Shown here: in pieces, positions 36,670 through 52,473 of the stretch
Layout of the letters: every line of letters starts with the position of its first letter
Numbering within the stretch: the stretch's first letter is position 1
NCBI RefSeq assembly: GCF_904846705.1
Contig: NZ_CAJHBS010000010.1
Span: 1-64,000, forward strand
Direction of reading: 5' to 3'
DNA from: Psychrobacter sp. Pi2-52
GTDB lineage: Bacteria; Pseudomonadota; Gammaproteobacteria; Pseudomonadales; Moraxellaceae
Length of the DNA stretch: 64,000 bases
The notes under the pieces: generated by a model
Database searches by the model: none
Told to the model about the DNA's origin: nothing
Seen by the model: the letters and a program-made list of their open reading frames with translations, nothing else
Translations under genes and position numbers: made by a program

Positions 36670-39600
36670 ATGAACCGTATCTATAAAGTCATCTGGAATG
36701 AAGCCCTAAGTTGTTTTACCGCCGTTGGTGAATACGCGAAGGGACGTGGCAAATCTTCCAAATCTAGCGTTAGCTCTAACGCTACCATCAACACAACGTC
36801 TAACCTATCCGTTATCCATACGTTACGTCTGAGCACTATAGCGCTTGGGCTACTAACTGCTGGCTTTGGTATGCAGGCAAATGCAGATCTTAACTACTCT
36901 AACAACACTTATTATACCAACCATCAGACCATGGGTAATGGTCATAGTAACCATGGGAATGGCAACGGAGTTGGACACGATACCCATGGAAACGGCAATG
37001 GTTATGGTCACAACGGGAACAACGGGAACAACGGGAACAACGGGAACAACGGAAATAACGGAAATAACGGAAATAACGGAAATAACGGAAATAACGGAAA
37101 TAACGGAAATAATCATTTGTCTGGTTTAAAATTCGCTGGCGATACAGGTGGTGTTATTACACGTAATCATGGTGAGAAACTCACCGTCAAAGGCGGTGCA
37201 ACCACAGCATTATCGAACAACAACATCGGTGTCGTTGCAGATAACATGAGTAACACCTTAACCATCAAACTGGCGAAAAACCTAACCGGTCTTGATAGTG
37301 CCGACATTGGTGGTATCAATGTTTCATCAACAGGCATTGATGCCAACAGCACCCAAATCACAAATGTGGCCAGTGGTGTTGGTGATGATTACAATGCAGC
37401 CAATATTGGTGATCTAAACAAAGCAGTCGCTGACAATAAAACCAAGTACTACAGTGTAAAAAGTGGTGCCACAGGGTTGTTAAGTAACGAAAACAATGAT
37501 GGTGCACAGGGATCAAACTCTATGGCCATGGGTGGCAACGCCAGTGCTATAGGTGGTCAAGCCATTGCTATCGGTAGTGGCGAGAGTGGTCAGAACACTG
37601 TAGCTAGTGGACAACAGTCTATCGCTATTGGTGCAAACACGGTATCAAAAGGACATTCATCTATCGCCATTGGTGGCGATGATTTAGATGACGCCTCAAA
37701 GGTAAATGGAGTTAATGCATTATTCAACACTTATACAGGTACTACAGGCGGTCTTGTTACGATAGGTGATTATAGTAATCATACTGAATCTGGTGGTGCG
37801 GCCTCTGTTGCCATTGGTGTCAAAGCGCATTCTAAAGGCAATCTCTCTACGGCTGTAGGTGTCCGTTCAAGCTCATTAGGTGATGCATCATCTGCCTTTG
37901 GTATGGGTTCTTCAGCAACCAAGAAAGGTTCAGTGGCACTTGGTGCGGGTTCAACCACACTCACCGATGCGACTTACCAAGATAAGCTTACTATTGGCAG
38001 TAAGGATTATTTATACGCTGGTGCGACAAATGATAAAGGGGCACAGATCTCTGTTGGCTCAGAAGGACGTGAGCGTCAAATCAAGCATGTTGCTAGTGGT
38101 GAGGTGAGTGCAGCCAGTACCGATGCTATTAATGGTAGTCAGCTACACGCTACTAATCAATCTATTGAAAATTTATCAGAAAGCAAGATTACCTTTGCAA
38201 GTGATAGAGGAGCTCCTGTAGAGCGTAAGCTTGGTGAGACACTTAATATTAAAGGTGGTGCAATGGCCACTGCTGCTTTAACTACAGGCAACATTGGAGT
38301 AGAGTCTGATGCTAGTACTAACACACTAACTGTAAAGTTAGCTGAGAACGTAGACCTTGGCACTAATGGAAGTGTCAAAATGGGAAGTAGTAGCAGTATT
38401 CCTTATAGTTTAGGTGCTGTAACAACTGTTAATAGCCTAGGTGTCTTGACAGGTAATTGGCTAGGCAGTACAGCAGTTACTGGTGCAGGTATTATAGTAA
38501 ATGGTCCACTAGGTATTCCTAGTACTGCTCTAACCATGGATGGTTTAACAATTATCGGTGGTCCAAGTATTACGAGAAGTCATGGTATCGATGCTGGTAG
38601 TAAGAAAATTACTAATGTTAAAGCAGGGTCAACCGAATTTGACGCGGTCAACTATGGTCAGCTGGAAGAAACCAATACTGCAGTGAGCCGAGGTTTAGAT
38701 TTCATCGGCGACAATACTGATACCACCTCTGTGATTACTCGTAAATCTGGTGAAGTCTTGAAAATCTCCGGTGGTAATACTATTCTCACTGATTTATCTG
38801 ATGATAACATTGCTGTTATTGCTGATAATAACACTAATGCTCTAACTGTTAAATTGGCTAAAAATTTAACGGGTCTTAATAGTGCAAGCTTTGGTAATGA
38901 CGTTATTATTTCATCCACTGGCTTAAGAGCAGGAGCTACCGTAATCAATACTAGTGGCGTCAGTTTTAGTAACAGCACTGTAGGCTTAAGTAGCGGTGGT
39001 CTTAACAATGGTGGCAAGGTAATTACAGGTGTTGCAGATGGTACATTGGATGATGAAGCTGTAAACTATGGCCAATTAAAAGCAGTTAAAGAAAGTGCTG
39101 AAAATGCTAATAGAGGTTGGGATATCAGTGCGCAAGGTGACAGTGAAACCGAAAGCACTGTCGAGCCTGGTGGCAAGGTTGACTTCAATAGTAAAAACGG
39201 CAACATCACTGTTTCTAAGGCAGCAACTAGCAATGATATCTCATTTGAGCTTAATAACAACCTAGATCTTGGCGTTAGTGGAAGTGTTAAAATTGGTGAT
39301 ACCACAGTTAGTGACAATGGACTGACCATTGCAGATGGCCCAAGCATCACGAAAAGTGGTATTGATGCCGCTAATACTAAAATTACCAACGTTCAAAATG
39401 GGGAAGTTTCGGCGACAAGTCAGGACGCCATAAATGGTAGTCAGCTTTACGCACAAGGCACTGGTATCAGTAGCATCATCGGTGGTGACACTGTTTACAA
39501 TGCTGAGAGTGGTACTTTCACCAATAGTGATATTGGTGGAACAGGTCAAGGTAATATTGATGGTGCGATTGCTTCTATCAGACAAGGCACGATCGAAATC

Positions 39601-40332
39601 AACGAAAACGTACAAATCAATACTACAGCTATCGCAACCAATGTGACTAATATTGCTAATAACAATAGCAATATTATGACTAATACCACTAACATCAAGA
39701 CCAACACGGATAGGCTCGATGCAGGACTTAACTTCGGTGCAGATAGTGGAACCAATATCAACAAACCAATTGGCGATGATAGTGTCCTAAGCTTCACTGG
39801 TGGTAATAACATCACCACTACTGCAGAGGGTAGTAGTATCAAGTTTGAGCTGAATGATGAAATCAGTGTCAATAGTGTCAAGGTTGGAACTACGGTTATC
39901 AGTAGTAGCGGCATTAGTATGCAAGATGGGCCGAGTATGACTTCCCAAGGTCTATTCGCTGGTAACCAACGTATGGTCGGTGTCGCCGATGGTGTCGAAG
40001 CGACAGACGCCGTCAATTATAGTCAGCTTAGTGCACTTGATAGTCGACTCAATAATAATATGAGTGATCTTGGCTACAAAATCGACGAAGTAGAAGATGA
40101 TGCAAATGCAGGTATCTCAGCTGCAATGGCAATGTCGGCAATGCCTCAGGCTTATATCGCAGGTAAGTCACTGATTGGTGGCGGTGTTGGTACCTATAAT
40201 GGAGAGAGTGCTGTAGCGATTGGTTTCTCTAAATTATCTAACGACGGTCGCTGGGTCATTAAGGTAAATGGTTCGGCAGATACTCAAGGCAACGTAGGCG
40301 GTGCAGTTGGTGCAGGTTTCCATTTTGACTAA
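36670..40332 (+). CDS. Trimeric autotransporter adhesin (YadA-like, type Vc)
   Basis: The 1220-residue surface protein begins with an extended signal peptide region (MNRIYKVIWNEALSCFTAVG) typical of large autotransporters. After signal cleavage near MQANA come a Gly/Asn/His-rich part with eleven NGN repeats, YadA-type head repeats (SMAMGGNAS, QAIAIGSG, QSIAIGANT, SSIAIGGDD), several neck and stalk modules (INGSQLHATNQ, INGSQLYAQG, DAVNYGQL), coiled-coil stretches (TNVTNIANNNSNIMTNTTNI), and the four-strand YadA anchor at the C-terminus (GISAAMAMSAMPQ to GAGFHFD). It forms a trimer in the outer membrane and binds surfaces or host matrix. AAGGGAG precedes the ATG by 8 nt, and a strong terminator follows. 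Confidence 0.95.
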   Translation: MNRIYKVIWNEALSCFTAVGEYAKGRGKSSKSSVSSNATINTTSNLSVIHTLRLSTIALGLLTAGFGMQANADLNYSNNTYYTNHQTMGNGHSNHGNGNGVGHDTHGNGNGYGHNGNNGNNGNNGNNGNNGNNGNNGNNGNNGNNGNNHLSGLKFAGDTGGVITRNHGEKLTVKGGATTALSNNNIGVVADNMSNTLTIKLAKNLTGLDSADIGGINVSSTGIDANSTQITNVASGVGDDYNAANIGDLNKAVADNKTKYYSVKSGATGLLSNENNDGAQGSNSMAMGGNASAIGGQAIAIGSGESGQNTVASGQQSIAIGANTVSKGHSSIAIGGDDLDDASKVNGVNALFNTYTGTTGGLVTIGDYSNHTESGGAASVAIGVKAHSKGNLSTAVGVRSSSLGDASSAFGMGSSATKKGSVALGAGSTTLTDATYQDKLTIGSKDYLYAGATNDKGAQISVGSEGRERQIKHVASGEVSAASTDAINGSQLHATNQSIENLSESKITFASDRGAPVERKLGETLNIKGGAMATAALTTGNIGVESDASTNTLTVKLAENVDLGTNGSVKMGSSSSIPYSLGAVTTVNSLGVLTGNWLGSTAVTGAGIIVNGPLGIPSTALTMDGLTIIGGPSITRSHGIDAGSKKITNVKAGSTEFDAVNYGQLEETNTAVSRGLDFIGDNTDTTSVITRKSGEVLKISGGNTILTDLSDDNIAVIADNNTNALTVKLAKNLTGLNSASFGNDVIISSTGLRAGATVINTSGVSFSNSTVGLSSGGLNNGGKVITGVADGTLDDEAVNYGQLKAVKESAENANRGWDISAQGDSETESTVEPGGKVDFNSKNGNITVSKAATSNDISFELNNNLDLGVSGSVKIGDTTVSDNGLTIADGPSITKSGIDAANTKITNVQNGEVSATSQDAINGSQLYAQGTGISSIIGGDTVYNAESGTFTNSDIGGTGQGNIDGAIASIRQGTIEINENVQINTTAIATNVTNIANNNSNIMTNTTNIKTNTDRLDAGLNFGADSGTNINKPIGDDSVLSFTGGNNITTTAEGSSIKFELNDEISVNSVKVGTTVISSSGISMQDGPSMTSQGLFAGNQRMVGVADGVEATDAVNYSQLSALDSRLNNNMSDLGYKIDEVEDDANAGISAAMAMSAMPQAYIAGKSLIGGGVGTYNGESAVAIGFSKLSNDGRWVIKVNGSADTQGNVGGAVGAGFHFD
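37012..37110 (+). repeat. Eleven 9-bp tandem repeats encoding Asn-Gly-Asn
   Basis: Four units of AACGGGAAC (from 37012) are followed by seven of AACGGAAAT (from 37048). The 9-bp unit keeps the frame when copy number changes, so the length of the flexible segment near the N-terminus of the adhesin can vary without switching it off. Confidence 0.95.
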
Positions 40333-40504: not shown

Positions 40505-41683
40505 TTATATTCTGAACATTGCGCCATTCGGTGTCAGTCCAACATAGGCCATACCTGCTTGATTCATCCAGTGAGGTTGAATGATGCCATGCTGCAAAAT
40601 CGCATGAATGTCTCTATGCGCTCGTTCTATCTTATGCTTCTTATATAGGGAGGCTGTGCCTGCTACTGCGTAAATTTCAGATACTATGTTACGAGCTTCT
40701 CTTGCGCCTTCACAAGAAGCTGCCCATACATCTGCAAGCTGTATATCAGTAAAGGTGTTCTGCTGCTGTGCCTCTTTCCACAGTACCTCGACACTATAAT
40801 GCAGTTGGGCGCGTTTCGATGCTAGTATTGTTTTGCTCTTAGCAATAGTAGCCTGTACCGTTGCACGGTCGCGTAGATCTGGACTCTTACCAGGTGTTAC
40901 TCTCTCAAGGCACATATCAACCAAGTCATCCATAGCGGCTTTCAATACGCCTAGCGCCATCGCCGCACAGCCAGCAGCATTGATACAACCGATAGGCAGA
41001 CGACTGTAGGCAGTATCGACAGTCACAGGACTATCAAAGTCAACTGCATAAGCCTCTTTGACAAAAGCGCCTTTGACAACGATATCATGGCTACCTGTGC
41101 CATTTAGGCCGCCCACATCCCACGTGTCAATGATTTTTAAGTCTTTCTTGGGAATAAAAAATAGCTTTAAGTTTGCACCTGGGCCAAGGGTCGTAGGAGA
41201 GCCTTCGGAGATAACGAGACAACGGAGCACAAACCAGTCAGCCAATTGGCTTCCAGAGACGAGTGTCCATTGTCCTGATACCATGTAGCCATTATCTACT
41301 GTTTGGGCCACGCCTTCAGGACGTGCGGAATTGGCATAAATATGAGAGGGGTCGCTATATACTTCTTTCATACTGGACTCGTCCAAAAATCGACCGAATG
41401 TACAGGCCAAATGGTTGTTCCAAACGATCCAAGCAACGGAGGCCTCAGCACTGGCCAACGTCTCATAAGTTTTTAGCGTTTCTACTGGATTGCCTGCCCA
41501 TCCTCCTAACGATTTAGGCAGCCCCATTCTAAATAATGCAAATTCTGAAAGTTTATTGGCCACCACGGGTGCAATTTTTCTAGCGCTTTCTGTTTCATCT
41601 CTGAACATGATTGCTGATGCATAAATCTTGTTTGCTGCATCCGATGGTAGGGTGGTTATCTTTGCTGAGGATATATCATTCAT
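40505..41683 (-). CDS. Flavin-dependent monooxygenase of the acyl-CoA dehydrogenase fold
   Basis: The protein of about 392 residues has the acyl-CoA dehydrogenase type fold with the C-terminal domain seen in group D flavin monooxygenases: FRMGLPKSLGGW (about residue 55), SVAWIVWNNHLACTFGRF, NGYMVSGQWTLVSGSQLADW and a C-terminal AGTASLYKKHKIERAHRDIH. The catalytic glutamate of true acyl-CoA dehydrogenases is not evident. Such enzymes, with a separate flavin reductase, hydroxylate aromatic or sulphur compounds. The substrate is unknown; proximity to tyrosine degradation genes may be relevant. ATG 41683 is preferred over TTG 41692; AAGG is 9 nt upstream. Confidence 0.8.
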   Translation of the reverse strand: MNDISSAKITTLPSDAANKIYASAIMFRDETESARKIAPVVANKLSEFALFRMGLPKSLGGWAGNPVETLKTYETLASAEASVAWIVWNNHLACTFGRFLDESSMKEVYSDPSHIYANSARPEGVAQTVDNGYMVSGQWTLVSGSQLADWFVLRCLVISEGSPTTLGPGANLKLFFIPKKDLKIIDTWDVGGLNGTGSHDIVVKGAFVKEAYAVDFDSPVTVDTAYSRLPIGCINAAGCAAMALGVLKAAMDDLVDMCLERVTPGKSPDLRDRATVQATIAKSKTILASKRAQLHYSVEVLWKEAQQQNTFTDIQLADVWAASCEGAREARNIVSEIYAVAGTASLYKKHKIERAHRDIHAILQHGIIQPHWMNQAGMAYVGLTPNGAMFRI

Positions 41684-42032
41684 ATTGTTCAACCTTATTG
41701 TGATGAATAAGACAGTACTTTTTTCTATAGCTGATAAAGTACAAATTTGAGAGATGACAAATGCTTATATAAAGAATAACCAACAGCTGCCCACCATACA
41801 ACCGTTAATATGAATATATTAAAAATTATATTGTAAAAATTGAATAAATAGTAATCAATGAGGCAAAATTCAGCAATTAAGCTAGGAATTAAGCTGTAAA
41901 GATAGGTAGGGGTAAAGAATATTGAAGAACGAAGCCAGACCAAATACTAAGTGTTAATTCTAAGCCACTTAATATTTTGCCGAGAAGATAAATATTCTAT
42001 AAAGATAGGTATCCTATAAAAACTGTCTTAAA
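41684..42032. other. AT-rich stretch between monooxygenase and maiA
   Basis: This 350-bp region is very AT-rich. It holds one possible small membrane-protein frame (41725-41943, listed separately) and no clear promoter or terminator. Confidence 0.4.
41725..41943 (-). CDS. Possible small membrane protein
   Basis: A 72-codon frame encodes two hydrophobic segments (YSLIPSLIAEFCLIDYYLF and NIFILTVVWWAAVGYSLY) followed by KHLSS, a pattern that looks protein-like. The only start is TTG, without a good ribosome site, and there is no ATG in frame. It could be a real orphan or a chance frame in AT-rich DNA. Confidence 0.3.
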   Translation of the reverse strand: MVWLRSSIFFTPTYLYSLIPSLIAEFCLIDYYLFNFYNIIFNIFILTVVWWAAVGYSLYKHLSSLKFVLYQL

Positions 42033-42686
42033 TTAGGCATCACGTTTCGGCGCATCAGGTTGCATCATAGGATCCGCATCTGCAAATGCCTTTAGTGTAC
42101 GGCAATGAGTATCAATGGCTACGATACTGGGATAAGCGCTTAAATCTACTTTGAAGCGGCGAGCAGAAGAGACTTGTGGAATCAAATAGCAATCTGCGAG
42201 AGTAGGATTGTCACCATAACAGAACTGTCCGCGATTGTTATCCGCAGCTAAGCGTGTCTCTAAAGCGGCAAAACCTTCACTGATCCAGCGATTGCACCAT
42301 GCAATCACATCTTCCTCGTTTACTGACAGCTCATTGCGCAGGTACTGTAAGATGCGGCGATTATTAAGGGGGTGGATGTCGCAACCAACCATGGCGCTTA
42401 ACGCGCGTACCTGCATACGCCCAGCAGCATTGTGAGGCAATAATGGCTGCTCGGGGTAGACCTCTTCTAACCACTCCAAGATAGCTGGACTTTGATATAA
42501 TAGTAAATCGTCAGTCTGTAGGACAGGCACCAGTCCTTGCGGATTAATCGCTTTGAAAGCAGATTCTAACTGTTCATCCTGTGCCAGATTGATCGTGATA
42601 TCATCGTAATCTAAGCCTTTTAGGTTCATAGCGATACGAGTACGGTAAGACGTGCTACTACGAAAGTAGCCATAAAGTGTCATCAT
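42033..42686 (-). CDS. maiA: Maleylacetoacetate isomerase
   Basis: This zeta-class glutathione transferase isomerises maleylacetoacetate to fumarylacetoacetate, the second-last step of tyrosine degradation. The 217-residue protein has the zeta signature SSTSYRTRIAMNLKG at residues 10-24, then NPQGLVPVLQTDD and YQSPAILEWLEE, and the C-terminal helical domain. AAGGA lies 8 nt before the first of two adjacent ATG codons. The gene is divergent from an IclR regulator 166 bp away, which may control it. Confidence 0.95.
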   Translation of the reverse strand: MMTLYGYFRSSTSYRTRIAMNLKGLDYDDITINLAQDEQLESAFKAINPQGLVPVLQTDDLLLYQSPAILEWLEEVYPEQPLLPHNAAGRMQVRALSAMVGCDIHPLNNRRILQYLRNELSVNEEDVIAWCNRWISEGFAALETRLAADNNRGQFCYGDNPTLADCYLIPQVSSARRFKVDLSAYPSIVAIDTHCRTLKAFADADPMMQPDAPKRDA

Positions 42687-42852: not shown

Positions 42853-43710
42853 ATGCCAGCAGACAAAACCCTTGTAGACAGTTCTATCAGCAGTAAAAAC
42901 CAAAGTGGGGTTCAGTCGCTTGAGATTGGGCTGTCGATACTCGATGTGCTGATCGACCGCAATGAGCCTATGATGCTAAAGGATATCGCTGAAGCCATGC
43001 AAATGCATCCAGCAAAATCCCATCGTTACTTGGTTAGTCTCATCCGCAAAAACTATGCGCGTAAGCTCGATGATGGTCGCTATGGGCTTGGTGATAGAGT
43101 CAATGCACTGGCATCACTAGGACATACTGGACTCAACCAAAACAATCTTTTGGCACGTCTCACGCAAGTGGCTAATGAAATCAAAGACACGTTAAACTGC
43201 GGTGTGCAAATTGCCAAATGGTTTAGCGAAGGCCCTATTATTATTCAGTCCGTTGAGCCAGACAGTCCGATTAGTATCATTACTCGCATTGGCTCACGTA
43301 TGCCTCTGACGACATCGGCCACAGGGCAGTTATTTGCCAGTTATCAACCTGATGCCGTCATTCAGCCATTGGTCACAGCTGAGTGGCATACGAGTAATAC
43401 CACCGTAGATATGACCGAGAAATGGCAGCACTTTACCCAGCTACAGGCCAAAATTCGTACTCAAGGCTATGCGACAGTGACGGGCGATATGCTTATGGGG
43501 ATTAACGCCATTACGATTCCTGTTATATTGCCACAGCTTGCCAATAGTGCTACTGAACCATCGATGAGTAGTGACAAAACTGATAGTGAAGATTTACCGC
43601 TAGAATATGCTATCACTATTATTGGAACAACAGAGCAATTGCCGATGAGCGAGCAACATAACGTGGTTAAGCAAATACTGGCGATAGCACAGCGTTATCA
43701 AATTGCCTAG
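42853..43710 (+). CDS. IclR-family transcriptional regulator
   Basis: The 285-residue protein has an N-terminal winged helix-turn-helix (about residues 22-75: GLSILDVLIDRNEPMMLKDI, AEAMQMHPAKSHRYLVSL) and an IclR effector domain (RIGSRMPLTTSATGQLFASY at about 140). IclR proteins often control aromatic compound degradation and bind a pathway intermediate. The divergent maiA and the surrounding tyrosine genes are likely targets. A polar loop (TEPSMSSDKTDSEDL, about 236-250) lies near the C-terminus. The ribosome site is weak. Confidence 0.9.
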   Translation: MPADKTLVDSSISSKNQSGVQSLEIGLSILDVLIDRNEPMMLKDIAEAMQMHPAKSHRYLVSLIRKNYARKLDDGRYGLGDRVNALASLGHTGLNQNNLLARLTQVANEIKDTLNCGVQIAKWFSEGPIIIQSVEPDSPISIITRIGSRMPLTTSATGQLFASYQPDAVIQPLVTAEWHTSNTTVDMTEKWQHFTQLQAKIRTQGYATVTGDMLMGINAITIPVILPQLANSATEPSMSSDKTDSEDLPLEYAITIIGTTEQLPMSEQHNVVKQILAIAQRYQIA

Positions 43711-43754: not shown

Positions 43755-44807
43755 CTAAACCATACAGGCGCTACTGGCCGCTTTTGCTTTTTCGTATACG
43801 TTGTCAGCATCTAGGCCAGTCGCATTCACTTCATCAAGGTAATGTTGAGAGCCTTCCATCAATGGGCCTCTCCAATCTGGATCATTAAGTGGATCAGGGA
43901 TATCAATCATAATATCGCCTTTTGCTTTGGCGGCGGCCATCGCTTTGGCATTGCTGATGTCAAATACTTTAGAGATATGTGCTGCCAGCTCTGCGCCAGA
44001 ATTGTCATCAATCACTTTTTTGAGGTCATCAGGCAAGCTGTTATATTTCTCTTTGTTCATGCTAATCACAAAGGTGGAGTTATAAAAAGGAATATTGGTG
44101 TGCGTATTGATCAGCTCATCAAGGCGAAACGCTTGAATGGGTTGCCAAGTAAAGCTGAGCCCATCAATGACACCGCGCTGCAGAGAGGTATAAGTATCAC
44201 TGGCAGGCATGCCGACAGGTGCAGCACCAGTGGCTTCGATAATGTGGCTAGCAACCGCAGAAGGTTGGCGAATACGCAGACCTTTCATATCAGCTGGCGT
44301 GCGAATCGGTTTATCAACCGTATGAAGTGCACCTTGTCCAGTGCCTATCAGCGCTAGCAAGTGAGTGTCTTCGTACTCGTCTTTAATGACACCCTCGTCA
44401 TATAGTTTATGAAGTATACAGCTCTGCTGCTGTGCAGTATTTGTGATGCCTGGCAACTCTACGATTTGAGTCAAAGGAAAACGTCCTGCTGTATATCCTT
44501 GCGCTTGCATACCAATATCTACGCTACCTTTAGCTGTAGCGTCATAGGTAGCACCTGGTTTGCTGAGCGTCGCAGAAGGGTATATCTCAACCTTTAAGCG
44601 ACCTTTTGAATCTGCTTCAATTTTCTTTGCCCATGGCTCTAACGCTTCGGTGTTTATATTGTCAGTGGCAGTCATGAAATGCGAGAACCGCAATGTTGTC
44701 ACTTCACCTGCATCTGTAGACGCGCCTCCTGCTTGGTCGTTATTGGAGCAACCAGTCATCGCAATCGAGGCGGCTAAGAATATTCCTAGAGGGGTTCTTA
44801 TTTTCAT
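43755..44807 (-). CDS. TRAP transporter solute-binding lipoprotein (DctP family), orphan
   Basis: The protein of 350 residues has a lipoprotein signal with lipobox MTGC, then the DctP fold: TTLRFSHFMTATDNINTEAL, KKIEADSKGRLKVEIYPSATL, the conserved IRTPADMKGLRIRQPSA (about 175) with the arginine that binds a carboxylate, and FTWQPIQAFRL. DctP proteins bind organic acids for the DctQM permease, but no DctQM genes are in the window. Position among tyrosine degradation genes suggests an aromatic or keto acid ligand; this is inference. Start ATG 44807 or ATG 44810. Solitary mobile-element ends flank it on both sides. Confidence 0.9.
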   Translation of the reverse strand: MKIRTPLGIFLAASIAMTGCSNNDQAGGASTDAGEVTTLRFSHFMTATDNINTEALEPWAKKIEADSKGRLKVEIYPSATLSKPGATYDATAKGSVDIGMQAQGYTAGRFPLTQIVELPGITNTAQQQSCILHKLYDEGVIKDEYEDTHLLALIGTGQGALHTVDKPIRTPADMKGLRIRQPSAVASHIIEATGAAPVGMPASDTYTSLQRGVIDGLSFTWQPIQAFRLDELINTHTNIPFYNSTFVISMNKEKYNSLPDDLKKVIDDNSGAELAAHISKVFDISNAKAMAAAKAKGDIMIDIPDPLNDPDWRGPLMEGSQHYLDEVNATGLDADNVYEKAKAASSACMV

Positions 44808-44856
44808 CATAGAGTCCTTTCATGATGGTTAGATATGGTTCGCTATTCATTAATAC

Positions 44857-44944: not shown

Positions 44945-45520
44945 TTACTCGCCGACAGGAGCAACTTCGCGTGCTTCAGCCAGCTCATCACTATGCAGAA
45001 ACTGTGTATGTGCAGGAGCACGCTTGGTACGAGACCACTCATCTAGCATGTCTTGCTTGATGGCATCTGTAATCATCGATACTTTGTCTTCTGAGGTTGG
45101 ATCATCATAGGTCAGCTCGAGACGATGACCGTTGGGATCAAAAAAGTAAATCGAGTGAAAGATGCCGTGATTGGTCACGCCAATGACATCGATGCCTGCA
45201 TTTTCTAAATGCTCTTTGGCAACTATTAATTCGTCACGGTCCTTAACCTTTAGCGCCAAATGCTGCACCCAGCTTGGGGTATTAGGATCAAAGCCCATCT
45301 CAGGTTGATTGGGTACTTCAAAAAACGCTAAGACATTTCCATTACCAGCGTCCAAAAAGACGTGCATATAAGGGTCAAAGGCTTTGGTCGAAGGCACATG
45401 ATCTTCTGCGAATGCCAGAATAAAATCCATATTTAGATTCTTTTTATACCATTCGACGGTTTCTTTGGCATCTTTGCAGCGATAAGCCACATGATGGATT
45501 TTCTCAATTTGAAAGCTCAT
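44945..45520 (-). CDS. VOC-family metalloenzyme in the tyrosine degradation cluster
   Basis: This 191-residue protein has the vicinal-oxygen-chelate fold with two beta-alpha-beta halves. Likely metal ligands are a histidine in KIHHVAYRC (residues 9-10), a histidine in SWVQHLALKV (about 87) and a glutamate in HRLELTYDD (about 133), the pattern of type I extradiol dioxygenases and glyoxalases. The C-terminal tail (DEWSRTKRAPAHTQFLH) goes beyond a minimal VOC domain. ATG 45520 has a strong AAGGAG 8 nt upstream; an earlier in-frame ATG (45625) has none. It follows fahA by 174 bp on the same strand. As no HmgA gene is in the cluster, it may open the homogentisate ring (inference). Confidence 0.85.
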   Translation of the reverse strand: MSFQIEKIHHVAYRCKDAKETVEWYKKNLNMDFILAFAEDHVPSTKAFDPYMHVFLDAGNGNVLAFFEVPNQPEMGFDPNTPSWVQHLALKVKDRDELIVAKEHLENAGIDVIGVTNHGIFHSIYFFDPNGHRLELTYDDPTSEDKVSMITDAIKQDMLDEWSRTKRAPAHTQFLHSDELAEAREVAPVGE

Positions 45521-45694: not shown

Positions 45695-46996
45695 CTACTT
45701 ATCAAAATCAAAGCTCAGTGCTGGTAATACCTTGCCGCGTACTTCACCAAAGCCAACACGAATGCCGTCTTTTTCGCTATAGCCTTTCATAATGACCGTG
45801 TCACCATCTTCGATAAAGCTGCGCGTCTCACCGCCTTCAAGCGTGACTGGTTTGGTAGCGTTCCAAGCAATCTCTAGCATTGAGCCATAAGAGTCAGATG
45901 TTGGCCCTGAAATCGTACCTGAACCCATCATGTCGCCGACTTCAACTTTGCAGCCAGTGATGGTGTGGTGGGTGAGCTGCTGTGCCATTGACCAGTACAT
46001 GTATTTGAAGTTGGTCTCACAAATGATGGTCGCTGTTTCCGCATTTTCAGGCAGTAACTCAACCGATAGATTGATGTCAAAGCTGTTGTCGCTCGCTTTT
46101 TCATTTAAATATGCAAGTGGCTTGGGTTCTTGTGTCGGACAAGCTGTTTTAAACGGAGCCAACGCATCCATGGTGACAATCCAAGGAGAAACCTCGGAGG
46201 CAAAGGTCTTAGCATTAAATGGACCTAAAGGCACGTATTCCCATTTTTGGATATCTCGTGCTGACCAGTCATTGAGCAACACCATGCCAAAGATATGATC
46301 AGCGGCATCATCTACGGCGATTGGCTGACCGATATGATTACCTTTACCAACAACAAAGGCGGTCTCTAGCTCAAAATCCAAGCGCTTGCAGGCAGAGAAA
46401 ATAGGACGCTCATCAGGGCTAGGCTTTAGCTGACCTGATGGACGTACGATATCAGTTCCACTAACGATGACGGTGCTGGCACGTCCGTTATAACCCACAG
46501 GCATTTCGGTCCAGTTAGGCAATAGGGCGTTGTTTGGATCGCGGAACATGGTGCCGACGTTGGTCGCGTGCTCTTTCGATGAGTAAAAATCGGTAAAGCC
46601 TGGTACTTGCACTGGCAAATGCATGGTGACGTCTGCTTGCTTAAATAGCGCCTTTTTTTGCAAGTCTGCATTGTCACGTAAGGTGTCAGTGTCGCTAGAC
46701 AGCAGTGTTTGAATGGTAGTGCGCGCCTGCGTCCAATTGTCTCGACCAGAATCAATAAAAGCATTTAGCGTAGATTGGTCAAAATACGGACCACCGTCTA
46801 AACTTAATAATCCTTCGGCTTCGAGTACAGATAGATCCAGTACATGCTCACCAATGGCAATGCCTGCACGGCGATTTTTATCACCAGTAGCGTCTTTGGT
46901 CTCGCTAAAGATGCCATAAGGGAGATTGTGAATAGAAAAGTCAGAGTCAGCAGCGATATCGATAAAAGACGTGAGTGTGCTGTCAGTCGTTGACAT
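45695..46996 (-). CDS. fahA: Fumarylacetoacetase
   Basis: FahA splits fumarylacetoacetate into fumarate and acetoacetate, the last step of tyrosine degradation. The 433-residue protein has the FAH layout: small N-terminal domain, then the catalytic domain with FYSSKEHATNVGTMFRD (catalytic His), RLDFELETAFVVGKGNHIG (metal-binding glutamates) and LLNDWSARDIQKWEYVPLG, and near the end GDMMGSGTISGP. ATG 46996 has AAGGAG 6 nt upstream; the ATG 24 bp earlier has no such site. It has its own promoter region with inverted repeats at 47016-47060, and a terminator separates it from tyrB. Confidence 0.96.
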   Translation of the reverse strand: MSTTDSTLTSFIDIAADSDFSIHNLPYGIFSETKDATGDKNRRAGIAIGEHVLDLSVLEAEGLLSLDGGPYFDQSTLNAFIDSGRDNWTQARTTIQTLLSSDTDTLRDNADLQKKALFKQADVTMHLPVQVPGFTDFYSSKEHATNVGTMFRDPNNALLPNWTEMPVGYNGRASTVIVSGTDIVRPSGQLKPSPDERPIFSACKRLDFELETAFVVGKGNHIGQPIAVDDAADHIFGMVLLNDWSARDIQKWEYVPLGPFNAKTFASEVSPWIVTMDALAPFKTACPTQEPKPLAYLNEKASDNSFDINLSVELLPENAETATIICETNFKYMYWSMAQQLTHHTITGCKVEVGDMMGSGTISGPTSDSYGSMLEIAWNATKPVTLEGGETRSFIEDGDTVIMKGYSEKDGIRVGFGEVRGKVLPALSFDFDK

Positions 46997-47015
46997 GATT
47001 TGCTCCTTGCTAATA

Positions 47016-47060
47016 TACATTATGAATTACGTTATAATTAATTACTTATGTATAATGTAA
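47016..47060 (-). promoter_or_regulatory. fahA promoter with overlapping inverted repeats
   Basis: On the minus strand TTACAT (47055-47060) and TTATAA (47032-47037) are 17 bp apart, acceptable -35 and -10 boxes. TACATTAT at 47016-47023 and its exact complement at 47052-47059 flank the -10, and a related ATTACGTTATAA lies between. The layout suggests a repressor or activator site, perhaps for the IclR or LysR regulator nearby. Confidence 0.5.
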
Positions 47061-47308: not shown

Positions 47309-48505
47309 TCAGTCTTTTAAAACGTCTGCCATGGCATTGGCCACATAGTCGATGTTACTGGTATTTAGGCCAGCCACGCACATACGTGAGTTAGAGACCA
47401 TATAGATACCAAACTCAGTCTGTAAACGCTCGACTTGCTCAGGCGTGAGACCAGTAAAGCTAAACATACCATTTTGACGAGTGATGTAATCAAAGTTACG
47501 GTGAGGGATTTTAGCCTCTAACACTGACTTTAGCTTTAGGCGCATCGCTTTGATACGGTCGCGCATCGCATAAACTTCGCCAACCCACTGCTCATGTAGT
47601 GCTTCATCATTCATGACGATATCGACCACGCGTCCACCATGTGATGGGGGGCTTGAGTAAATACGGCGTACGGTTGCGTTAAGTTGACCGAATACGCGCT
47701 CGGTTTCGTCTACGGTTGGGCAGACGACTGATAGGCCGCCGACGCGCTCGCCGTATAGCGACAAGTTTTTAGAGAATGAGTTGCTAACAAACAATGGGAG
47801 GCCCATCTCAACGGCTTTACGAATAGCGTAAGCGTCGCTGTCCATGTCTTCGCCAAACCCTTGATAAGCGATGTCCATGAATGGAATCAGCTCACGTGCC
47901 TTCACGACGTTGAGTACAGTATCCCATTGCGCTTGGGTCAAATCCATACCGGTTGGGTTATGACAGCATGGGTGTAGCAAGATGACGTCGTTTTCGTTCA
48001 ATGTCTCAAAAAACGCAATCATTTCCTCAAATTTGATACTGCTGTTGGCTTTGTCGTAGTACGGGTATTTACCCACTTCTACATCAGAGCCTTCAAAGAT
48101 AGCAATATGGTTGCCCCATGTTGGATCGCTCACATAGCACTTAGCTTGTGGGAACCAGTCATGGATAAACTCAGCACCAACTTTCAATGCGCCAGAACCA
48201 CCGATTGTAGCGATAGTAGCGACCAAGCCGTCTTTTAAAATCTGGGCGTCTTTACCAAATAGTAATTCCTGACAGCCTTTACGGTGGCCTGGCAGGCCTG
48301 CCATTGGCAGGTATGGACGCGGTGCGATAGGATCAGCAATACGCTCTTCGGCTGTTTTTACACAGTCGAGTACAGGCAATACGCCATTCTCATCATAATA
48401 AATACCAATGCCTAAATTGACCTTGTTAGGATTGCTATCTACTGAGTATTTTTCCATAAGACCTAAGATTGGATCACCAGCGTAATAATCGATACGTTCA
48501 AACAT
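47309..48505 (-). CDS. tyrB: Aromatic amino acid aminotransferase
   Basis: The 398-residue class I aminotransferase starts MFERIDYYAGDPILGLMEKY and has LHPCCHNPTGMDLTQAQW, the PLP lysine in NSFSKNLSLYGERVGGLSVV near residue 248, and RMCVAGLN at the C-terminus. TyrB and AspC are close relatives; the neighbouring hpd, phhA and fahA genes favour a role in converting tyrosine to 4-hydroxyphenylpyruvate. AAGGAA lies 7 nt before the ATG. The gene has its own terminator, so it is probably a separate transcript. Confidence 0.9.
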   Translation of the reverse strand: MFERIDYYAGDPILGLMEKYSVDSNPNKVNLGIGIYYDENGVLPVLDCVKTAEERIADPIAPRPYLPMAGLPGHRKGCQELLFGKDAQILKDGLVATIATIGGSGALKVGAEFIHDWFPQAKCYVSDPTWGNHIAIFEGSDVEVGKYPYYDKANSSIKFEEMIAFFETLNENDVILLHPCCHNPTGMDLTQAQWDTVLNVVKARELIPFMDIAYQGFGEDMDSDAYAIRKAVEMGLPLFVSNSFSKNLSLYGERVGGLSVVCPTVDETERVFGQLNATVRRIYSSPPSHGGRVVDIVMNDEALHEQWVGEVYAMRDRIKAMRLKLKSVLEAKIPHRNFDYITRQNGMFSFTGLTPEQVERLQTEFGIYMVSNSRMCVAGLNTSNIDYVANAMADVLKD

Positions 48506-48662: not shown

Positions 48663-49610
48663 TCATTCGCTAGACGATGAGTCAGAGTGATGTAGGTCGT
48701 TATAATGAGTCGCAAAATACGTTTGCAAAAACTGCTTAAAAGCAATTGTCGCCGGAGAGAGCGCCCGTGAGGCACGCTGATAGATAAAAAATTGCCGCAT
48801 TTTGACTGGTTGAGTGAGTGGTCGCATCAGCAGACCATTGGCGCTGACCCAATCAATAACTTCAGGCATATAAGGCAGACACAGCGTGATTCCAAAGCCT
48901 TGGCGTGTCATCTCAAGCGCGGTGGACATAAAGTTCACCTTGTATCGAGCTTGTTGAACGTGAACGGAGATAGAGTCGTCGAGCTCTGCGGTTACTTGAT
49001 CTAGGAACGGACCTTGTAAGGTAATCAGCGGCGTTTCTAATAAATCTTGCCAAGTAATTTCGTCTCTTTGTGCCAGTGCATGATTGTCTGGCATAACCAC
49101 ACAAAAAGGTAGCTGATACAACAGGTCAGCCCCGATATCATCTTCAGTTTCTATAAAACCAAGCTCGGTACCAACCCCTAAATCGACTTCGATATCTTGG
49201 ATATGCTTAAGCAAGTTTTCTGCTGAACAGTCTAATAGTGAGACGCCAATATTTGGATATTCTTTGGCAAATTGAGCGATGACGGCAGGTAGGGAAGACG
49301 CTGCAAACTGTGATACCGCCAAGCGCACCTGACCTTGGGCCAAGCTGGTCAAGCTACTTGCTTCATTTTCAAACAGCTGCATTTCATTCAAGATGCGCCG
49401 TGCTTGCGGTAGTAGGTGCCGTCCTACTGCTGACAGAGACAACTGGCGAGTGGTGCGATCAAACAGCACGATACCGAGGCCAGTCTCTAATTCCTTAATC
49501 AATCCACTAACAGCAGATTGGGTTAGATACATCTGTTCGCTGGCACGAGTAAAGCTGCCGTTGTCAGCGACTTTGATAAACGCGGTCAATTGGCGAATGC
49601 TAATATTCAT
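48663..49610 (-). CDS. LysR-family transcriptional regulator
   Basis: The 315-residue regulator has the N-terminal LysR helix-turn-helix (ISIRQLTAFIKVADNGSFTRA and QSAVSGLIKELETGLGI) and a C-terminal substrate-binding-like domain (FAKEYPNIGVSLLDCSAENL, IGADLLYQLPFCVVMPD). ATG 49610 has AGG 8 nt upstream; an earlier in-frame start at 49643 would cover the operator-like sequence. It is divergent from hpd, so hpd-phhA-phhB-nhaC is the likely regulon. The effector is unknown, with an aromatic pathway intermediate likely. Confidence 0.92.
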   Translation of the reverse strand: MNISIRQLTAFIKVADNGSFTRASEQMYLTQSAVSGLIKELETGLGIVLFDRTTRQLSLSAVGRHLLPQARRILNEMQLFENEASSLTSLAQGQVRLAVSQFAASSLPAVIAQFAKEYPNIGVSLLDCSAENLLKHIQDIEVDLGVGTELGFIETEDDIGADLLYQLPFCVVMPDNHALAQRDEITWQDLLETPLITLQGPFLDQVTAELDDSISVHVQQARYKVNFMSTALEMTRQGFGITLCLPYMPEVIDWVSANGLLMRPLTQPVKMRQFFIYQRASRALSPATIAFKQFLQTYFATHYNDLHHSDSSSSE

Positions 49611-49642
49611 AAGTAAACCTGATAAATAAATCATAAAAAACA

Positions 49643-49666
49643 ATTAGTCTTATAAATAAAGCTAAT
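49643..49666. promoter_or_regulatory. Palindromic LysR-type operator between lysR and hpd
   Basis: The 24-bp sequence runs from ATTAG to CTAAT and 9 of 12 positions in one half match the other half. Its place in the divergent promoter and size fit a LysR binding site. Confidence 0.5.
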
Positions 49667-49788
49667 CTAATATAAATACAACGTCAACAAAAAAGATTGA
49701 TTATTAATCGTTTTATAGACTTTTACTATTAATCGACTTTTACTACTCATCGATTTTCTATTACCAATTGAAATTAAGGATAATTACA

Positions 49789-50889
49789 ATGGCAGATTTA
49801 TTTGACAACCCAATGGGACTAAATGGATTTGATTTTGTAGAGTTTGCTTCTCCGCAGCCTGATGCAGTCGACGCATTGTTTAAGCAGCTTGGTTTTGCTC
49901 ATGTCGCCAATCATCGTTCAAAAGACGTTGCGCTATATCGCCAAGGCGATATCAACCTTATCCTAAACCGCGAGCCAAAAAGCCAAGCCAGTTATTTCGT
50001 TGAAGAGCATGGCCCTGGTGCTTGTAGCATGGGCTTTCGGGTAAAAGATGCCAGAAAAGCGTATGAGCGTGCGGTTGAAATGGGTGCACAGCCAGTAGAC
50101 GTACCAACTGGAGTAATGGAGCTTAGATTGCCAGCTATCAAAGGCATCGGCGGCTCATTAATCTATTTGATTGACCGTTATAAAGACGGCGAATCTATCT
50201 ATGATGTCGACTTTGAGTTCTTTGCAGATATCGACAGAAACCCTGTCGGCTATGGTTTCAAAGTTATCGACCATTTAACGCATAACGTCTATCGTGGACG
50301 CATGGCGTACTGGGCAAAATTCTATGAGCGTATCTTTAATTTCCGCGAGATTCGTTACTTTGATATCAAAGGTGAGTACACGGGACTAACCAGTAAAGCC
50401 ATGACCGCACCCGATGGAAAAATCCGTATTCCGCTGAATGAAGAAGCCAAACAGGGCGGTGGTCAAATAGAAGAATATCTAATGCATTTCAATGGCGAAG
50501 GTATTCAGCATATTGCGCTAGCCAGTGATGACTTGTTTGCCAGCATCGATAAGCTAAAAGCGGCTGGTATTCCGCTTATGACCGCACCAAATGCTGCTTA
50601 CTATGAAATGCTGAGTGAGCGTTTGCCAAATCATGGTGAAAATGTCGCTGACTTACAAACGCGCGGTATCTTATTAGACGGCACCACAGAAGGCGGTGCA
50701 CCGCGTCTGCTGCTACAGATTTTCTCTGAGACCATCTTGGGTAGCCCAGTGTTCTTTGAGTTTATTCAGCGTAAAGGCGATTATGCAGATGGCTTTGGTG
50801 AAGGTAACTTTAAAGCGTTGTTTGAGTCGATAGAGCGCGACCAAGTACGTCGCGGCACAGTCGGTCAGCCAGAGACTGAAACCCTATAA
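49789..50889 (+). CDS. hpd: 4-Hydroxyphenylpyruvate dioxygenase
   Basis: Hpd turns 4-hydroxyphenylpyruvate into homogentisate with O2. The 366-residue protein has two VOC halves; the iron ligands lie in the C-terminal one: histidine in [10 protein letters not shown], histidine in [11 protein letters not shown] and glutamate in [13 protein letters not shown]. The N-terminus [20 protein letters not shown] is typical of bacterial Hpd. ATG 49789 has AAGGA 8 nt upstream, and an earlier in-frame start at 49768 lacks such a site. It leads a plus-strand group with phhA, phhB and the NhaC-type gene. Confidence 0.96.
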
Positions 50890-51021: not shown

Positions 51022-51969
51022 ATGGAACGCCTATCACAGATAGATTCTCTTAATACGGCCATCGGTACCAATAGCGTTGCGACTAATAAGCAAAGCAACG
51101 ATGCGTCCAGTCATTCTAATGCGACAAATAAAAAACAACCGTATATCTCACACCAACCCGATAGTCATGGTCATATTCACTATAGTGATGATGAGCATGC
51201 GATGTGGCAAGCGCTGCTGGCACGTCAAGCGGAACAAACGCCCAATCGTGCGTGTACTGCATATTTAGAGGGTTTAACTAAGTTAAACCTACCGACCACA
51301 CGTATTCCTCAGCTACGAGATATTGACGAGGTATTACAAGCGACCACAGGTTGGCAGACCGCCGCTGTGCCTGCATTAATCAGCTTTGGTAAATTTTTCA
51401 AACTACTGGCCAATAAGTCCTTTCCTGTGGCGACGTTTATTCGTCGATTTGATGATATGGACTATATTGAAGAGCCTGATATCTTTCATGAAATCGTTGG
51501 GCATTGCCCGCTATTGACCCATCCTGCGTTTGCGGCTTTTAATGAGACGTATGGTAAGCTTGGTCTTAGCGCAACAAAAGAGGAGCGCTGGTTTTTAGCA
51601 AGGCTGTATTGGTTTACTATTGAGTTTGGATTGGTCGGCAGTCGAATAGAAAATCGTAGAATCTATGGCGGCGGTATATTAAGCTCACCTTCTGAAACGA
51701 TCTACGCACTTGATCGGACGCCGCAAGAACTTTCAATCGCTCAAAATAAGCCGCAATCTCAACCTCAGTCTCAACCTGAGCACCGAGCGTTTGATTTGCT
51801 CGATGTGTTGCGGACGCCTTATCGTATTGATCAAATACAGCCGATCTACTATGTCATCGATGAATTGGATACCTTATTTGATATCGTCAATAGTGACATT
51901 ATGGGTGCGGTCAAAAAAGCTATGTCGCTTGGACTATTTGAGCCGACCTATCCAGAAAAAACTCGTTAA
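51022..51969 (+). CDS. phhA: Phenylalanine 4-monooxygenase
   Basis: PhhA hydroxylates phenylalanine to tyrosine with tetrahydropterin and O2. The 315-residue monomer has an unstructured Ser/Asn-rich N-terminus of about 45 residues, then the catalytic domain: HAMWQALLARQAEQ, the iron ligands in DIFHEIVGHCPLLTH (two histidines, about residue 156-161) and the glutamate in WFTIEFGLV (about 201). A short Gln/Pro/Ser linker (PQSQPQSQPE) near residue 248 is an insertion. AAGGA precedes the ATG. phhB, which regenerates the cofactor, follows. Confidence 0.95.
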   Translation: MERLSQIDSLNTAIGTNSVATNKQSNDASSHSNATNKKQPYISHQPDSHGHIHYSDDEHAMWQALLARQAEQTPNRACTAYLEGLTKLNLPTTRIPQLRDIDEVLQATTGWQTAAVPALISFGKFFKLLANKSFPVATFIRRFDDMDYIEEPDIFHEIVGHCPLLTHPAFAAFNETYGKLGLSATKEERWFLARLYWFTIEFGLVGSRIENRRIYGGGILSSPSETIYALDRTPQELSIAQNKPQSQPQSQPEHRAFDLLDVLRTPYRIDQIQPIYYVIDELDTLFDIVNSDIMGAVKKAMSLGLFEPTYPEKTR

Positions 51970-52131: not shown

Positions 52132-52473
52132 ATGACAGCACTATCACAAAACAGCTGCGAAGCTTGCCGCATTGACGCACCGAAAGTTGATGAAGCCGAA
52201 GCACGAGAACTATTACCGCAAATTCCTGATTGGTCATTGATCGAAGTAGATGGTGTTCAGCAATTGCAGCGTCAGTATAAATTTAAAAACTTCGTCTCAG
52301 CAATGGCATTTGCCAATCAACTGGCAGACATCGCTGAAGCAGAAGGACATCATCCGGGTATATTGGTAGAGTGGGGTAAGGCTACGGTCACTTGGTGGTC
52401 ACATAGTATCAAGGGCTTGCATCGCAATGATTTTGTCATGGCAGCTAAGACCGATGACTTACTAGGCAAGTAA
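52132..52473 (+). CDS. phhB: Pterin-4a-carbinolamine dehydratase
   Basis: PhhB dehydrates the hydroxypterin formed by PhhA and so recycles the cofactor. The 113-residue protein has the family fold with [20 protein letters not shown], the active-site [21 protein letters not shown] (about 80-100) and [23 protein letters not shown] lies before the ATG. It follows phhA by 162 bp, in a region without other signals, and precedes a hairpin in front of the NhaC-type gene. Confidence 0.95.

Follow-up and report, generated by a model that had tools for sequence, protein, structure and literature searches.

A predicted VOC-fold homogentisate 1,2-dioxygenase among the tyrosine degradation genes of Psychrobacter sp. 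Pi2-52, a genome with no detectable HmgA

HmgA, the homogentisate 1,2-dioxygenase described by the profiles TIGR01015 and PF04209, is a cupin-fold enzyme. VOC-type dioxygenases of the PcpA/LinE/MhqO type cleave para-dihydroxy rings; these proteins have two VOC halves and a length of about 320-338 residues. The closest described system to the protein reported here is PDB entry 9u42, released 2025-07-23 under the title 'Crystal Structure of Homogentisate 1,2-Dioxygenase from Acinetobacter in Complex with Zn ion'. It should be noted that its function rests on the depositors' title, and that the molecule name in the entry is 'Glyoxalase'. Our literature search found no paper behind 9u42, and a VOC-type homogentisate dioxygenase is not described in the titles, abstracts and passages that the search covered. 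Homogentisate is absent from the main text of the gap-filling paper PMC9007349. Passages of PMC6650585 state that the enzymes converting hydroxyphenylacetates to homogentisate and further to 4-maleylacetoacetate are undescribed in A. baumannii.

We analysed a window of 64,000 nucleotides, the whole stretch of DNA under study, from Psychrobacter sp. Pi2-52. At 44945-45520 on the negative strand it encodes a VOC protein of 190 aa, predicted from sequence and fold matches to belong to the type I extradiol family. The coding sequence covers 44948-45520, the stop codon is at 44945-44947 and the N-terminus reads MSFQIEKIHH. We suggest, with a probability of roughly 0.94, that this is a VOC-fold homogentisate 1,2-dioxygenase, doing the job of HmgA without being homologous to it. 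The assignment already exists for the orthologue 9u42, and because that orthologue was deposited under this name the Psychrobacter protein is a further member of a recently named kind.

The first-pass annotation had described the gene as following fahA on the same strand, with a strong ribosome binding site, among genes for PhhA, PhhB, TyrB, Hpd, MaiA and FahA, and all of this stands. In brief, fahA encodes fumarylacetoacetase (45695-47020, negative strand; TIGR01266, 591.8 bits, cut-off 375.3) and is separated from the VOC gene by 174 nt, and AAGGAG is found just 5' of the VOC start codon ATG. The maiA gene encodes maleylacetoacetate isomerase (42033-42686, negative strand; TIGR01262, 281.1 bits, cut-off 171.05). 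Divergent from it is a gene for an IclR-family regulator (42853-43710, positive strand), PcaR/PcaU/PobR-like with scores below cut-off, which is a candidate HmgR and has a relative in six of the seven Acinetobacter loci. The hpd gene encodes 4-hydroxyphenylpyruvate dioxygenase (49768-50889, positive strand; TIGR01263, 395.3 bits, cut-off 277), and a LysR-family regulator identified with Pfam is encoded divergently from it (48663-49643, negative strand). An aromatic-type, TyrB-like aminotransferase (47309-48505, negative strand; PF00155), phenylalanine 4-monooxygenase encoded by phhA (51022-51969, positive strand; TIGR01267, 314.4 bits, cut-off 264.75) and pterin-4a-carbinolamine dehydratase encoded by phhB (52132-52473, positive strand; PF01329) complete the set. 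MaiA, FahA, Hpd and PhhA are thus above their NCBIfam equivalog cut-offs, and the TyrB-like protein and PhhB are recognized by Pfam only. A gene for a TRAP-type substrate-binding protein (43755-44810, negative strand) is located between the VOC gene and iclR/maiA; no TRAP permease gene was recognized by eye among the open reading frames of the window. A scan for promoters and terminators found fewer sites than in shuffled sequence (12 vs 16.2 and 5 vs 7.3, respectively) and has no bearing on operon limits.

The genome otherwise encodes the pathway from phenylalanine to fumarate and acetoacetate, and it has no detectable HmgA. A gap at 40-54 kb had been noted at first, together with the suggestion to search the whole genome; the gap is confirmed and extends to the entire assembly, where no HmgA homologue was found with PF04209 (0 matches) or TIGR01015 (0 matches, even at E<=10). 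The positive control, Caulobacter vibrioides, was matched in both profile searches. PF04209 likewise gave no match in any of 249 Moraxellaceae genomes, the Caulobacter control again being matched. The assembly is in 69 contigs, which leaves some room for a true HmgA in a gap, or for one too diverged for detection, but the completeness of 99.99%, the empty TIGR01015 search and the absence of HmgA from all 249 genomes, including single-contig genomes that carry the VOC gene such as G083 and G142, make this extremely improbable. HmgA and the VOC protein would share the reaction and the place in the pathway, whereas neither TIGR01015 nor PF04209 matches the VOC protein, no homology between the two is detectable, and about 430 residues in HmgA (TIGR01015 has 429 positions) stand against 190.

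Pfam finds glyoxalase domains in the VOC protein and nothing else (PF00903, 54.7 bits, cut-off 20.6), and both Pfam and the AlphaFold model indicate one VOC unit in the 190 residues. The model has a pLDDT of 83.3, with residues 76-84 below 50. The NCBIfam matches, to YaeR (35.5 of 140 bits) and FosF (32 of 280 bits), are both under cut-off, and an identity as glyoxalase I or as a Fos enzyme was rejected on these low scores. The protein was also considered as a duplicated half of Hpd; this was rejected, the best match to the Hpd of the window covering 46 residues with an E-value of 0.022.

For the active site we aligned the window protein with relatives from 57 of the best 80 named loci, all of them at least 64% identical to it. 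The His-His-Glu metal site proposed in the first-pass annotation corresponds to H10, H87 and E135, which are invariant in 58/58 sequences, as are H9, H118 and Y125. Residues 116-135, TNHGIFHSIYFFDPNGHRLE, fit the extradiol signature (PROSITE PS00082) in all 58 sequences. The VOC protein of genome G436, from outside this alignment, keeps H10, H87, H118, Y125 and E135 by its translation, and the stops flagged in its match are the natural end of the frame. H87, Y125 and E135 align by profile with the conserved His, the Tyr of IYFFDP and the Glu of catechol 2,3-dioxygenase (1mpy). Type I extradiol dioxygenases such as 1mpy have two halves and about 300 residues, whereas the VOC protein is one unit, and the substrate proposed for it is a para-diol, unlike those of the 1mpy-type enzymes. 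The second PDB match, 1zsw (E 1.9e-12 by profile), is presumably of the PcpA/LinE/MhqO type; the two-module chain of about 320 residues of the PcpA/LinE type differs from the single unit of the 190-residue protein.

The entry 9u42 aligns with the VOC protein by sequence over 181 residues (E 9e-96). It is also the top fold match, with a Z-score of 19.0 and 74% identity over 167 aligned residues (76% in Foldseek). The two proteins are 74-76% identical over nearly their full length and share the VOC fold, and the Acinetobacter orthologues are encoded in a similar gene cluster. In Psychrobacter, unlike the genus of 9u42, maiA is parted from the VOC gene by the IclR gene and mostly also by the TRAP binding-protein gene, which is present at this place in 26 of the 30 loci L001-L030. 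L-DOPA dioxygenase (6on1), ranked second by Foldseek, ties in E-value with the glyoxalase GloA2, so the fold alone cannot single out a dioxygenase.

We propose that the cellular metal of the VOC enzyme would be Fe(II), whereas Zn is present in the 9u42 crystal. The substituted hydroquinone homogentisate would bind the metal beside O2, and the ring would be cleaved between C1 and C2 to give maleylacetoacetate, after which MaiA and then FahA would complete the pathway. The VOC fold and the cupin HmgA would have come to the same job through convergent evolution. For Psychrobacter, Acinetobacter and some of their relatives, the predicted enzyme would fill the sole gap in the breakdown of tyrosine. 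The gene has only generic VOC/glyoxalase matches in NCBIfam and Pfam, so metabolic reconstructions relying on these would show a missing step.

Co-occurrence across Moraxellaceae, put forward in the first-pass annotation as a check, was found: a VOC orthologue is present in 122 of the 249 genomes, in 116 of these together with Hpd, and HmgA is present in none. Above the family cut-offs, FahA is found in 113 genomes and Hpd in 119; VOC and FahA occur together in 112, and VOC, FahA and Hpd in 108. FahA is found without VOC in a single genome (G157), where the FahA match holds a stop codon. The three genomes with Hpd and no VOC (G099, G108 and G218) have no FahA over the cut-off. VOC without Hpd is found in G103 (88% complete), G112 (63% complete), G171, G182, G184 and G247; in G103 the Hpd is in two pieces on two contigs, and its apparent absence is thus an assembly effect. 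Excluded from these counts are 4 of the 126 genomes that had a VOC match (distant in G038, G068 and G093, a fragment in G165), and, as below the family cut-off, 22 of 135 FahA genomes and 3 of 122 Hpd genomes, G103 being one of the three. In G165 (L125, 6221-7287; a g15 genome) the VOC fragment is located beside a broken fahA; this is a decaying tyrosine cluster, with VOC and fahA in joint decay. The 10 VOC genomes lacking a TIGR01266 FahA belong to one genus (g10). In four of them (G036, G045, G071 and G078) an FAH-family protein of about 332 residues adjoins the VOC gene, and that of G045 is far under the TIGR01266 cut-off.

FahA is thus kept alongside VOC in 112/122 genomes, and MaiA is found as a rule in the Moraxellaceae clusters inspected. 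FahA and MaiA are useless without ring opening, which argues against a non-catalytic or accessory VOC protein, such as a glyoxalase-like isomerase or a detoxifier, in a pathway whose end product, homogentisate, is exported as pyomelanin. This is how passages of PMC7646211 read strain AB4353, and the generic glyoxalase/Fos matches in NCBIfam would agree with it. Those matches are far under cut-off, however, the active-site residues are invariant, and the complementation in passages of PMC9431530 removes the pigment, if the hmgA of that work is the VOC gene. We therefore regard an accessory role as very unlikely.

In a class sample of 274 genomes a VOC orthologue is present in 8 genomes from 7 families and HmgA in 31, and no genome has both. 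Orthologues were here defined by at least 57% identity, by which 8 of the 38 genomes with a VOC match were counted; 3 of the 31 HmgA matches are weak (E 1e-6 to 1e-4), yet above cut-off. Among the 41 genomes of this sample with Hpd, 24 have HmgA only, 7 have VOC only, none has both and 10 have neither. Two of these 10, G404 and G521, encode a VOC relative that is 39-42% identical. The relative in G404 (L140; that of G521 is L143) adjoins a gene for a flavoprotein hydroxylase (FMO). Fisher values calculated for the Moraxellaceae and class counts take no account of kinship and are given no weight here.

The first-pass annotation mentioned a VOC gene among the tyrosine genes of Acinetobacter, and we found it there: the order is fahA-maiA-VOC-iclR-hpd in L031, L032 and L033, and other orders occur in the Acinetobacter loci L034-L037. 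The Psychrobacter order is hpd, tyrB, fahA, VOC, (TRAP), iclR, maiA. Beyond Moraxellaceae, HmgA-free clusters with hpd, VOC and fah genes were found in Noviherbaspirillum galbum (L048), Crenobacter oryzisoli (L070), G314, G440, G464, G553 and G562. The cluster orders in G440, G553 and G464 are hpd-fahA-VOC-maiA or maiA-FAH-VOC-hpd. In Noviherbaspirillum L048, Crenobacter L070 and Rhodoferax ferrireducens L058, the hpd, VOC and fahA genes are tens of bases apart; the genome of the last also encodes HmgA. Hpd, FAH or MaiA is encoded within 5 kb of VOC in 65 of the 80 named loci, which are the best 80 VOC matches and not an unbiased sample.

HmgA is also encoded in 43 of the genomes of these best 80 loci (30/50 plus 13/30), and the VOC gene is therefore not a simple HmgA substitute everywhere. 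By record title, 38 of the 43 are alphaproteobacterial, and none of the genomes of the 14 named Moraxellaceae loci (L031-L043, L045) has HmgA. The first-pass proposal of an unrelated replacement for HmgA is supported by the absence of HmgA from the assembly, the near-perfect association of the VOC gene with Hpd and FahA, the extradiol motif and above all 9u42 (74-76%). As a label, 'replacement' does not cover every lineage, many VOC genomes beyond Moraxellaceae also having HmgA.

The presence of HmgA varies with the genes around VOC. In the best 80 loci, HmgA is found in 2/23 genomes where Hpd is encoded in the locus and an FMO is not adjacent, in 27/35 where an FMO is encoded within 0.4 kb of VOC (loci within L045-L110), and in 14/22 with the remaining contexts. 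The usual alphaproteobacterial gene order is hmgA-fahA-FMO-VOC-maiA. The two FMO proteins examined, those of L057 (8042-9730) and L127, are above the cut-off of NF006002, a subfamily labelled just FAD-dependent oxidoreductase. Three loci with the FMO context, L079 from Jhaorihella thermophila, L092 and L093, have no HmgA, yet do have FahA and MaiA. In G247 (L127, 7519-14379) and G171 (L131, 6829-12321) the VOC, MaiA and FahA genes are found near an FMO, and neither genome has an Hpd over the cut-off; G247 has a single weak, interrupted Hpd-like match.

These 35 FMO-adjacent loci, 27 of them with HmgA in the genome, are what one would expect if the VOC protein were an extradiol dioxygenase for another dihydroxylated substrate, such as a product of the alphaproteobacterial FMO, with Moraxellaceae opening homogentisate by an unrecognised enzyme. 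G446, which has an FMO-VOC pair and neither Hpd nor HmgA in its genome, fits as well. Against this are the title of 9u42 and the context of most Moraxellaceae loci and many beta- and gammaproteobacterial clusters, where VOC occurs with hpd, fahA or maiA and an FMO is not adjacent. In our VOC tree (90 rows, with short matches and matches crossing a stop, about nine loci, excluded) the FMO-adjacent label switches at least four times, going by the starred branches, and such swapping between FMO and Hpd contexts suggests the same ring substrate. We therefore consider another substrate unlikely. The closest named relative of the window protein in this tree is that of Psychrobacter sp. FME6 (91% identity). 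Four g10 rows, from HmgA-free genomes, cluster with alphaproteobacterial VOC proteins with 99/65 support on a long branch of 0.71, and their placement is unsure.

Returning to homogentisate as the substrate, we infer that one VOC activity may be fed by two upstream routes, Hpd and FMO, and the FMO beside VOC is predicted to produce either homogentisate or a closely related hydroquinone. As a tentative proposal, to which we give slightly less than an even chance, the VOC homogentisate dioxygenases may be a second widespread class in Pseudomonadota, serving lineages without HmgA and running beside HmgA in many alphaproteobacteria; the NF006002-type FMO may supply homogentisate, or a very closely related hydroquinone, without having been recognised as doing so; and in the Acinetobacter-like genomes G171 and G247 it may replace Hpd as the entry to VOC, MaiA and FahA.

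Work by Coelho-Souza from 2014 reportedly describes loss of hmgA caused by ISAba1. The VOC assignment helps to clarify further papers on pyomelanin in Acinetobacter, as far as their available passages go. In those of PMC7646211, A. baumannii AB4353 is without hmgA, and a gene located between hmgC and hmgR, whose product carries a ring-cleaving dioxygenase domain of type I, is judged probably inactive; by its place, this is the VOC gene. In passages of PMC9431530, Tn2006 within 'hmgA' of A. baumannii DETAB-R21 leads to pyomelanin, and a plasmid copy abolishes the pigment; these passages hold no statement equating this hmgA with a VOC gene. The target duplication is printed there as nine letters and stated as 11 bp. 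Reverse-complemented, the nine letters match the VOC gene at nt 76-84 (codons 26-28) in three of the seven Acinetobacter loci (L031, L032 and L033), and they are also found in the VOC gene of L044, a Neisseriaceae-labelled MAG. By chance, about 0.05 such matches are expected per VOC-length gene. The letters are absent from fahA and maiA of L031-L033 and from the VOC gene of the other four Acinetobacter loci (L034-L037); in L037 they are found in fahA. This sequence match is good evidence, though not proof, that the DETAB-R21 'hmgA' is the VOC gene. The passages of PMC12057158 simply cite PMC9431530.

In the passages of PMC11945678, 'hmgA' is a 633-bp stretch with a 14-bp overlap with hmgB. In L031, 6749 is the start of the maiA match and 6762 the end of the fahA open reading frame. 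By size and position this 'hmgA' looks like maiA, and published 'hmgA' names in Acinetobacter are therefore unreliable; the search for hmgA mutations in that work may not concern the dioxygenase.

Adjoining maiA in the window is a gene for an HsaA-like relative of flavin-dependent monooxygenases and acyl-CoA dehydrogenases (40505-41692, negative strand; 130.7 bits, HsaA cut-off 450). It was considered as a required hydroxylase of the pathway and rejected, the Acinetobacter loci L031-L037 having no match to it. At 36670-40332 on the positive strand the window encodes a repeat-rich large surface protein of 1220 aa, which by eye is trimeric autotransporter adhesin-like.
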